Positions 15,450 through 18,178 of a DNA stretch of 64,000 nt are shown here, in pieces. The stretch comes from Exiguobacterium sibiricum 7-3 (GTDB taxonomy: Bacteria; Bacillota; Bacilli; Exiguobacteriales; Exiguobacteriaceae), in contig NZ_KK211190.1 of NCBI RefSeq assembly GCF_000620865.1, positions 261,971 through 325,970 on the forward strand. Reading direction: 5' to 3'. The notes beneath the pieces were generated by a model, which was given only the letters and a program-made list of their open reading frames with translations, did not search any database and had not been told where the DNA came from. The stretch's first letter is position 1, and every line of letters begins with the position of its first letter. The translations under genes were made by a program, and so were the position numbers.

Positions 15450-15608
15450 ATGAATCCATTTACTACACTCATTGCCTTCATCGTCGGCTGTCTGGTTCTG
15501 TATCTCGGAATTCGGGATAAGAACGGTTGGTTGATTGGTGTCGCAATGATTCCGCTTGCCATTGTTGCATACAGTGTCATCTATCTAATCATCCAGGTCT
15601 CGGCCTAG
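15450..15608 (+). CDS. Small two-helix membrane protein
   Basis: A 52-residue open frame with GAGGGGGAA at good spacing before the ATG and a strong terminator right after the stop. It consists of two hydrophobic helices (about 4-20 and 28-48) joined by RDKNGW. I do not recognise it. It has its own transcription unit just upstream of the five-gene membrane-protein array and could be related to it functionally, which is speculation. Confidence 0.65.
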   Translation: MNPFTTLIAFIVGCLVLYLGIRDKNGWLIGVAMIPLAIVAYSVIYLIIQVSA

Positions 15609-15639
15609 AAACTTCTTTTGCAGAAGTTTCTTTTTTTTT
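15608..15639 (+). terminator. Terminator after small membrane protein
   Basis: An 8-bp perfect stem, GAAACTTC / GAAGTTTC, is followed by nine T residues. Confidence 0.9.
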
Positions 15640-15702
15640 GAAACATAACTGGTAAAATGTAAGTATATGACAGTGAAGAACAAACGAAAGGAACGTGCCC
15701 GA

Positions 15703-16152
15703 ATGGAAACTGTAACGGTTCAACAAACCGAATTAAAGGCGCTATATCAACACATGCATCAACGAACGACCGCTAAATTATGGGGTGTCTTGGCTCTGTT
15801 CTTATTCGTCAGCAATATGATCGAACGACCGTTGTTTGCCTTAATCATTCCGATTCTGTATTTCATATATGATGTAGTGATGCAACGCCGCCGTTTTCAA
15901 ATCGTTGCCCGTCACACGTCAAAAAAATCAGCAGACCGTCTGTTCCGTCTGCATGTCGGCGTCGGCCTGTTTCAATACGGAGCGCTGGCTGCGTTGATTG
16001 TTCTCACGGCTAATCGTTCGAGCACGGTCTTTTTGCTCGGACTGTGTCTTGGCGTCATCCCGTTTTACTGGCTCTGCAGACGCTTCTTGACGTACCGCTC
16101 CAAACAGATTGATCCGACCTATATCAGCGAAACAGAGATTCAGCAAGGATAA
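15703..16152 (+). CDS. Four-helix membrane protein, array member 1
   Basis: A 149-residue protein of unknown function. Its plan is a short charged N-terminus, two helices (about 24-40 and 43-60), a basic loop with MQRRRFQIV, two more helices (about 84-102 and 108-126), and a C-terminal tail KQIDPTYISETEI. That plan and the tail motif recur in the next four genes. It is the most divergent of the first three. ATG 15703 has AAAGGA 10 nt upstream; the frame is open to 15667. It leads a five-gene array with gaps of 14-23 bp, so one transcript is likely. Confidence 0.75.
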   Translation: METVTVQQTELKALYQHMHQRTTAKLWGVLALFLFVSNMIERPLFALIIPILYFIYDVVMQRRRFQIVARHTSKKSADRLFRLHVGVGLFQYGALAALIVLTANRSSTVFLLGLCLGVIPFYWLCRRFLTYRSKQIDPTYISETEIQQG

Positions 16153-16166
16153 AGGAGGAAAGCCGG

Positions 16167-16643
16167 ATGCAAACGGCACGGGACGAACGGTTACACGAAC
16201 TGACGCTTGCTTATATCGACAAGAGTCAACTGCAAAAGAACGGCTGGCTGATGGCGGCAGTAGCGGCGACGCTCGGCATTTTTTCGGAAACGATGGATTC
16301 AGCCCTTTACTTCGGTCTGTTGCCGCTTGTCTATCTGATTTTTGATTTCCCGTTCCAGCTGGAAAAACGCAGGATTTTAGAACGGTATCTCTCAAAAGAT
16401 CAGATCATGACACAATCGATGCTGTGGCTCGGAATTCAGATTGTGTTATATGGCTCATTGCTCATGGTTGTACTCGAAACGAAAGGTCTGTCCTTATGGA
16501 AGATGACTTTTTGGATCATCTTGATTCTCGCTCCGATTTATTTTGCGACCGATTGGCTGTTTAAGAAAATGGCACGGTCAGGCGATCCCGACTTCGTCAG
16601 TGATCAGGAAGTGCATAAGCACGTGAAGTATCTGGAAGAATGA
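16167..16643 (+). CDS. Four-helix membrane protein, array member 2
   Basis: A 158-residue paralogue. The N-terminus TARDERLHELTLAY is nearly identical to member 3. Two helices (about 28-60), a basic loop LEKRRILERYLSKDQ, two helices (about 82-128) and the tail GDPDFVSDQEVHKHV follow. No catalytic or transport motif is visible. A strong AAAGGAGGAAAG ribosome binding site precedes the ATG, 14 bp after member 1. Confidence 0.8.
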   Translation: MQTARDERLHELTLAYIDKSQLQKNGWLMAAVAATLGIFSETMDSALYFGLLPLVYLIFDFPFQLEKRRILERYLSKDQIMTQSMLWLGIQIVLYGSLLMVVLETKGLSLWKMTFWIILILAPIYFATDWLFKKMARSGDPDFVSDQEVHKHVKYLEE

Positions 16644-16663
16644 CATCTAAAGGAGAGAACATC

Positions 16664-17125
16664 ATGCGCACGGCACGGGACGAACGGTTACATGAGTTGA
16701 CGCTGGCTTACATGGAGAAAGACCTTTTAGGAACGAAGTGGTTATGGACAGTTCTACTTTTGATGGGTATCGGGATTTTAATGACGTGGTTTGATTCGAT
16801 TCTACTGACGCTGTTATTTCCGGCTGCTTTCCTTGGATCCAATCTTCGTTATCAAGTCAAAAAACGTCAGATTCTTGAATCGTACATCGGTGAAGAACTG
16901 GCAACCAGACACTGGCGGTTTTGGCTTGTCCAAAACGTTGTCTTAAGTGTTACTTTTGCAATCCTTTTGGTACAGACGATGAATATGTCGTTTTGGCAGA
17001 TGTGGGGATTGATTCTGATTATCCTGCTCCCGATTTACTTGGTTTCTGAATGGTGGTTTAAAAAACGTATTCGGCGCGATGATCCGGATTTTGTCAGTGA
17101 TCAGGAAGTGTACAAAAATGTGTAA
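16664..17125 (+). CDS. Four-helix membrane protein, array member 3
   Basis: A 153-residue protein, closest to member 2. It shares TARDERLHELTLAYMEKD at the N-terminus, VKKRQILESYIGEEL in the central loop and DDPDFVSDQEVYKNV at the C-terminus. The two look like a recent tandem duplication. An in-frame start at 16640 exists inside the upstream gap, but ATG 16664 follows AAAGGAGAG and aligns with member 2. Confidence 0.8.
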   Translation: MRTARDERLHELTLAYMEKDLLGTKWLWTVLLLMGIGILMTWFDSILLTLLFPAAFLGSNLRYQVKKRQILESYIGEELATRHWRFWLVQNVVLSVTFAILLVQTMNMSFWQMWGLILIILLPIYLVSEWWFKKRIRRDDPDFVSDQEVYKNV

Positions 17126-17143
17126 AGTAGGAGCGAAAATCAA

Positions 17144-17617
17144 ATGAACACACTGCTTGAAAAAAATACACGGTTGAATTTGCTTGGACCGCCGCTCAAA
17201 AAACTTCAACATCTGACGCCGGTTCCGGTTTTGATCCTCGCATTGATTGGTTGGTTCATTCCGGGTTTTTGGGAGACCGGACTGTTTACGTTGTTTTCGA
17301 TTACCGTACTTTGTTTAGGCGGTGTCGTCCGCGAAATCATGCGTCTGCGAATTTTAAAACAACGTCTGTCGGTTGAGTTGTATCAACAGACCGTTTTAAA
17401 GGTCGGTCGGGCTTCGATGATCGGCTATCTTGTCCCTATCATTTTATTCTATGCAGGAATGATCTTTCCCCAGTATTCAAGTGTTTCTTTCACCCTGATT
17501 CTGTTCTGGGTCTTTGCGATTACAGTATATGTCTCTCGATTAAATACGATAGCGAAACAACTGGATCCCGCGTTCGTGACGATGCGGGAAGTCGAGCAGT
17601 ACCGGAAAAGAAGTTAG
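17144..17617 (+). CDS. Four-helix membrane protein, array member 4
   Basis: A 157-residue membrane protein with two helix pairs around a basic loop (MRLRILKQRLS). The tail KQLDPAFVTMREVEQYR matches the DPxF[VI]SxxEV motif of the other members. The N-terminus is different (NTLLEKNTRLNLLG), so it has diverged. GTAGGAG precedes the ATG. Function unknown. Confidence 0.75.
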   Translation: MNTLLEKNTRLNLLGPPLKKLQHLTPVPVLILALIGWFIPGFWETGLFTLFSITVLCLGGVVREIMRLRILKQRLSVELYQQTVLKVGRASMIGYLVPIILFYAGMIFPQYSSVSFTLILFWVFAITVYVSRLNTIAKQLDPAFVTMREVEQYRKRS

Positions 17618-17640
17618 TTCGGTGGAAAGGGGAGAATGGT

Positions 17641-18126
17641 ATGGAAGAGGTGGGACGACAACGAAAGCTTGATTATCTGCGCTTCACGAAACGTGCCCGG
17701 CATGTCCAGACGGTATTTTTTATACTCGTCTTGGTCGTCTTTTTGTTTCTGGCAGATGATTTTAATTTCTCTGAAGCATCGATGCATTATTTTTTACTGA
17801 TTCCAGTCCTCGGCTACCAATGGACGGTTCGTTTGTTGAAGTACCGTTACTTCACAAAACGATTTGACCGGATGGAAGTTTGGGATCACCTCGGGTTGCC
17901 GTACATCGTCATTACGATTAGCGAGCTGCTACTTGTCGTTGCGTCCCAGTTCTTGATTCCGTATGTGTCGCGACCAACGCTGATTGGACCGATTCTTGTC
18001 TTTTTACTGTCCGTCTTGTCACTCGACCGTCTCGTCGATTCCCGGATCAAACGACTCGATCCGACGCATTTATCAGAACGCGAGCTGATTCTCGCGGAAC
18101 GGGAAGCGCGGCGCGTTAAATATTGA
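17641..18126 (+). CDS. Four-helix membrane protein, array member 5
   Basis: A 161-residue membrane protein and the last of the array. It has helix pairs at about 25-60 and 85-125, a central loop LLKYRYFTKRFDRME and the tail KRLDPTHLSERELILAE, a variant of the shared motif. AAAGGGGAG precedes the ATG. A strong bidirectional terminator follows, which ends the five-gene unit. Confidence 0.75.
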   Translation: MEEVGRQRKLDYLRFTKRARHVQTVFFILVLVVFLFLADDFNFSEASMHYFLLIPVLGYQWTVRLLKYRYFTKRFDRMEVWDHLGLPYIVITISELLLVVASQFLIPYVSRPTLIGPILVFLLSVLSLDRLVDSRIKRLDPTHLSERELILAEREARRVKY

Positions 18127-18178
18127 ACAACAAAAAAACGAGGAGCGGAGTAAATATCCGGTCCTCGTTTTTTGTTGT
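18127..18178. terminator. Bidirectional terminator
   Basis: A long stem, ACAACAAAAAAACGAGGA / TCCTCGTTTTTTGTTGT, with an inner CGGA/TCCG lies between the convergent membrane-protein array and the siderophore transport genes. Confidence 0.9.

Follow-up and report, generated by a model that had tools for sequence, protein, structure and literature searches.

Several membrane proteins of Bacillus subtilis that protect against bacteriocins are described as being driven by the sigma factor SigW (PMC8144471, PMC3498285). Tandem, fast-changing membrane paralogues are described as a feature of immunity arrays (PMC9484751, PMC7456083), among them the TsaI (DUF443) arrays of Staphylococcus aureus, in which polytopic membrane paralogues stand in tandem in variable copy number (PMC9484751, PMC7456083). 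The TsaI proteins are predicted to have five helices, with the N-terminus outside and the C-terminus inside (PMC7456083), and the array is reported to adjoin the toxin gene tspA. The EsaG and TipC immunity arrays likewise consist of paralogues in tandem, with gains and losses of copies (PMC9484751), and are described as linked to type VII toxins.

The array described here lies in a 64-kb window of the Exiguobacterium sibiricum 7-3 genome, the window being the whole stretch of DNA that was analysed. The preliminary description of five adjacent open reading frames of 149–161 residues, spaced 14–23 bp apart, was borne out at every coordinate; the gaps are 14, 20, 18 and 23 bp, and the five genes (A to E) are probably one operon. 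The features are as follows.

15607..15631, + strand: terminator-like hairpin from a hairpin scan, the boundary between the 52-aa gene and the array.
15639..15667, + strand: ECF-sigma (SigW-type) promoter-like site TGAAAC-N17-AGTATA, conserved in 18 of 18 arrays.
15703..16152, + strand: paralogue A, 149 aa (open reading frame list, MAFFT alignment, sister-genus profile).
16167..16643, + strand: paralogue B, 158 aa (open reading frame list, MAFFT alignment, sister-genus profile).
16664..17125, + strand: paralogue C, 153 aa, sister of B (open reading frame list, alignment, profile, tree, AlphaFold model).
17144..17617, + strand: paralogue D, 157 aa (open reading frame list, MAFFT alignment, sister-genus profile).
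17641..18126, + strand: paralogue E, 161 aa, known from one clade of the genus only (open reading frame list, alignment, profile, AlphaFold model).
18138..18173, strand not assigned: inverted repeat followed by a T run, a possible terminator after E, noted by eye; its loop is longer than the hairpin scan allows.

The array shares with the SigW-driven operons of B. subtilis (YknWXYZ, YfhLM, YdbST and YqeZ-FloA-YqfB) membrane-protein products and, likely, the class of sigma factor and promoter. It differs from that regulon in being built of fast-changing tandem paralogues, and in that a search of class genomes outside Exiguobacteriaceae found no member of its family.

The five proteins are true homologous paralogues by sequence comparison, and the homology extends past the tail. 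In the MAFFT alignment of A to E (n = 5), D137, P138 and E145 (A numbering) are invariant, so that the proposed common C-terminal motif is in register in all five; the tail consensus of the family is DPxxV(S/T)xxE. Each protein was also scored against a profile of the other four, giving 54.6 (A), 99.6 (B), 79.9 (C), 21.1 (D) and 19.6 bits (E), compared with 6.5–9.9 bits for the best of 200 shuffles of each and 4.8–8.8 bits for the best of 151 other hydrophobic open reading frames. A profile made solely from 126 proteins of the sister genus gave A–E 26.1–41.9 bits, with 12.3 bits for the best of 1000 shuffles and 10.6 bits for the best other open reading frame. B and C had been proposed to be a recent duplication. 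They are indeed sisters in the tree, next to the one B/C gene that the other clade has, which places the duplication within one clade of the genus; with an identity of only 42–43%, however, it is recent in a relative sense. The tree places E apart from A–D, among sister-genus members, a position that is unsure because the method was a quick one and many branches are long.

Hydropathy and charge indicate a pair of tight hairpins with a basic loop between them and a charged tail after them, from which both ends are predicted to be cytosolic. Four helices are predicted for the family, as had been claimed; in the simple hydropathy analysis A and D have four over the threshold, while B, C and E have three, one helix in each falling below it. 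In the AlphaFold model of C (39 input sequences; pLDDT 82, pTM 0.70), four long helices are preceded by an N-terminal helix and followed by a short C-terminal one; the model of E is less certain (pLDDT 74, pTM 0.54). Foldseek with the C model returned no PDB match at E ≤ 0.001, and none of the fold matches was convincing.

No Pfam or NCBIfam model matched A–E above its cut-off, in agreement with the earlier suggestion of an undescribed system. When 30 members were scanned, the best matches were DUF3169 (8e-4) and FtsW (9.9e-6), each in one of the 30, and none of nine family members matched the PADLOC anti-phage defence models at E ≤ 0.01. Membership of the TsaI/DUF443 family was considered and rejected: DUF443 is absent from the Pfam-A matches of A–E at E ≤ 10, and the array proteins have four predicted helices with both ends cytosolic, in contrast with the five helices and N-out, C-in arrangement of TsaI. 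The EsaG and TipC arrays were compared with A–E through the Pfam and NCBIfam scans. Four helices with tight hairpins also recall the layout of SMR proteins, and the paralogues might be small subunits of a transporter or channel by which a membrane-damaging compound is exported, the more so as putative YdcZ-family exporters and an ABC transporter are found among the sister-genus members. We regard this as improbable, given the lack of any transporter family above the Pfam and NCBIfam cut-offs for A–E; the negative Foldseek result points the same way, as a weak and non-excluding argument.

A–E appear to represent an undescribed family of small membrane proteins with four predicted helices, so far found only in Exiguobacteriaceae. 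A 30-row profile matched at E ≤ 0.01 in all 38 genomes of this family, which are also the 38 genomes of the order; the match in one of them, G025, is weak (0.003). Across 398 genomes of the class there was no convincing match outside Exiguobacteriaceae, weak partial matches aside. In total 217 family open reading frames were collected, 76 from the genus of the window and 141 from the sister genus. The named protein matches are from Exiguobacterium and are mostly annotated as hypothetical proteins, for which a stress promoter would be a first handle on function.

In the promoter-like site before the array, TGAAAC and GTATA are invariant in the 18 genomes that carry the array, while the seven bases after TGAAAC, and the preceding terminator, vary between clades. 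We call the site SigW-type by comparison with the B. subtilis SigW consensus, the window having A where the canonical −10 has C; relative to the box that precedes sigW in this genome, the window −10 likewise differs by one base. The array box is the sole match of its pattern in the window, where 0.01 would be expected. A longer version of the pattern has ten matches in 84,980 public genomes, nine of them on Exiguobacterium contigs, which include E. sibiricum 255-15, E. undae, E. antarcticum and E. indicum. The tenth, an exact match, comes from Gracilimonas mengyeensis, outside Bacillota (L181).

Among the 76 members of the window genus, which come from the 18 arrays and three second-site stretches, 18 have the box at −150 to +60, compared with 0 of 301 other open reading frames. 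The corresponding counts in the sister genus are 13 of 141 members and 14 of 280 other open reading frames; these 14 fall in 12 loci and are either a putative ABC-permease gene next to the clusters or open reading frames that overlap it. The sister-genus clusters sit behind TGAAAC-N16-17-CGTA or GGAACTT-N14-15-CGTATA, and a solitary member at another site, in G012, also has a TGAAAC-type box. The second of these boxes, which reads GGAACTT-N14-15-CGTATA in the copies found, has 16 occurrences in 752,541 bases, all of them 11–48 nt before a family member; five of these 16 loci were uninspected when the pattern was written, so the remaining matches are partly by construction. Reversed patterns, used as a control, had no match. 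In the genome of the window a looser pattern matched 18 sites and its reverse six, so that about a third of such sites may be due to chance.

An ordinary housekeeping promoter could also lie here, in which case the array would be a lineage-specific family unrelated to envelope stress. TAAAAT between the two boxes, conserved in 15 of 18 arrays and replaced by TAAACT in three, could be an ordinary −10, and no ECF box was found before two further family members at a second site near 1.55 Mb in the window's own genome. This reading nevertheless has little probability in our judgement: it is at odds with the invariance of TGAAAC and GTATA next to seven variable bases, and with the same or a related box preceding members at other sites in another genus.

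SigW is encoded in the genome (NF007223, 296.9 bits, cut-off 209; TIGR02948, 255.7 bits, cut-off 243.1), and the gene beside sigW has a weak anti-sigma match (25.7 bits, cut-off 100). TGAAAC-N16-CGTATA precedes sigW itself, and TGAAAC-N17-CGTATA precedes a gene that matched no NCBIfam model and that we take to be NfeD/YqeZ-like. The box in 18 of 18 arrays, the related boxes of the sister genus and the presence of SigW with a box of its own make an envelope-stress promoter of the ECF (SigW) type likely, and give substance to the earlier hint at envelope stress. The array is thus probably transcribed from such a promoter, and it is probable that it encodes ECF-regulated membrane proteins; SigW itself may drive it.

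The array is present in 18 of 19 genomes of the window genus, in every case between the 52-aa gene and iron-transport genes; in G025 the 52-aa gene directly adjoins the iron-transport gene, with no array between. Of these 18 arrays, that of the window among them, four have five genes and three are without A; two have five genes with C broken in frame, eight have three genes, and one has three genes with the middle one broken. Intact copies thus number 2 to 5 per array, although some of the breaks could be assembly errors. The sister genus has clusters of 5–11 members per genome in the stretches read (17 of 19 genomes); of the two genomes outside these, G009 has 13 profile matches and G012 one clear member.

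By simple counting in nine of 17 relatives, with saturated values and comparisons with a missing orthologue left out, dN/dS is 0.06–0.34 for the array genes and 0.00–0.08 for the protease, 52-aa and iron-transport genes. Between the window and the other clade, array members are 37–54% identical, compared with 81–83% for the protease, 86–95% for the iron-transport genes and 98–100% for the 52-aa protein. The low dN/dS values, together with identities below those of the neighbours, indicate that the array proteins are kept by purifying selection and yet diverge rapidly. The N-terminus and the tail are among the best conserved parts of B and C, in which the second outer turn and helix 4 are the most variable; helix 3 is variable too in C. 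In D it is the helices that vary most, and the pattern of B and C is not seen in A or E. In one relative (L025), synonymous divergence from the window is 0.04–0.06 in A and B and 0.33–0.51 in the protease and iron-transport genes; this difference suggests recent recombination between strains in the A/B part of the array. Three genomes have transposase-like open reading frames, IS3-like and TnpB-like on visual inspection, next to or within the array (L031:6425-8004, L040:6517-8096 and L030:8655-9299).

These data bear on a stress-induced structural or membrane-remodelling complex, a homo- or hetero-oligomer with a flotillin- or PspA-like role and no specific antimicrobial target. The same promoter evidence fits such a complex, the conservation of B and C at the N-terminus and tail is what would be expected of parts that hold a complex together, and in 12 loci of the sister genus the box stands before two neighbouring members. 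Clades differ, however, in copy number and membership, and the proteins change faster than their neighbours, which is unusual for a core structural complex. The absence of A or E from whole groups speaks against a fixed five-subunit machine, and we consider the structural role on the whole unlikely.

The explanation we prefer, tentatively and as something approaching an even chance, is that the array is a SigW-type operon of an undescribed four-helix family that protects the membrane against antimicrobials. The predicted promoter would switch the array on under envelope stress, and the proteins would act in the membrane as homo- or hetero-oligomers, protecting it against bacteriocins or antimicrobial peptides, so that the array would form an inducible bank of protection or immunity proteins. 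Purifying selection combined with fast change and copy-number turnover resembles, by analogy, the behaviour of immunity arrays; this likeness, the parallel with the SigW regulon and the sister-genus neighbours make protection against membrane-active compounds the likeliest role in our judgement, although antimicrobial protection, taken as a step by itself, falls somewhat short of an even chance.

No linked toxin or bacteriocin gene was demonstrated for the array, nor was a direct antimicrobial link found. Tandem, fast-changing paralogues as described in PMC9484751 would suit a role in immunity to a type VII (LXG) toxin system, comparable to that of the TsaI or EsaG arrays of S. aureus. Such a role is very improbable here: a search for the LXG domain, positive in its B. 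subtilis control, found it in none of the 38 family genomes, and DUF443 is lacking as noted above. It is possible, if rather doubtful, that Exiguobacteriaceae keep an inducible, expandable immunity repertoire without linked toxins, behind two kinds of ECF promoter, in which copies would be duplicated, diverge and be lost again in step with changes in the membrane-active bacteriocins present locally. The array offers a testable case of probably stress-inducible membrane paralogues under birth-and-death evolution with no known linked toxin. If the protective role is true, banks of immunity proteins also exist away from toxin-linked loci, and SigW regulons include parts that are specific to a lineage and change fast.

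The secreted protease and the 52-aa two-helix protein upstream (the latter at 15450-15608, 98–100% identical across the genus) had been brought into connection with the array, and are probably unrelated to it. The 52-aa gene is present in one copy in each of the 38 family genomes, and lies hundreds of kb from the cluster in the four sister-genus genomes in which the two share a contig (G005, G007, G010 and G013). The terminator-like hairpin separates it from the array, and no protease match was found in the L026 stretch, which contains the array.

Several other genes accompany the family in the sister genus. A two-gene putative ABC transporter with its own ECF-type box, consisting of a permease without a Pfam match and an ATPase, is found beside the clusters (L044:2629-4110 and 11 other loci). 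At nine loci (L044:7116-7383, L042, L048, L049, L051, L052, L053, L057 and L059) a 67-aa protein is encoded behind a TGAAAC-N17-CGTA box and divergently from a family member; it has one helix and a zinc-ribbon-like Cys-x2-Cys ... Cys-x2-Cys tail. A 75-aa helix-plus-coiled-coil protein with a TGAAAC-N17-CGTAAT box occurs near clusters (L048:15710 and L057:15401). Finally, a protein with a SUKH-1 (SMI1/KNR4) domain, a known kind of immunity protein, is encoded among the sister-genus members (L044:5802-6593).
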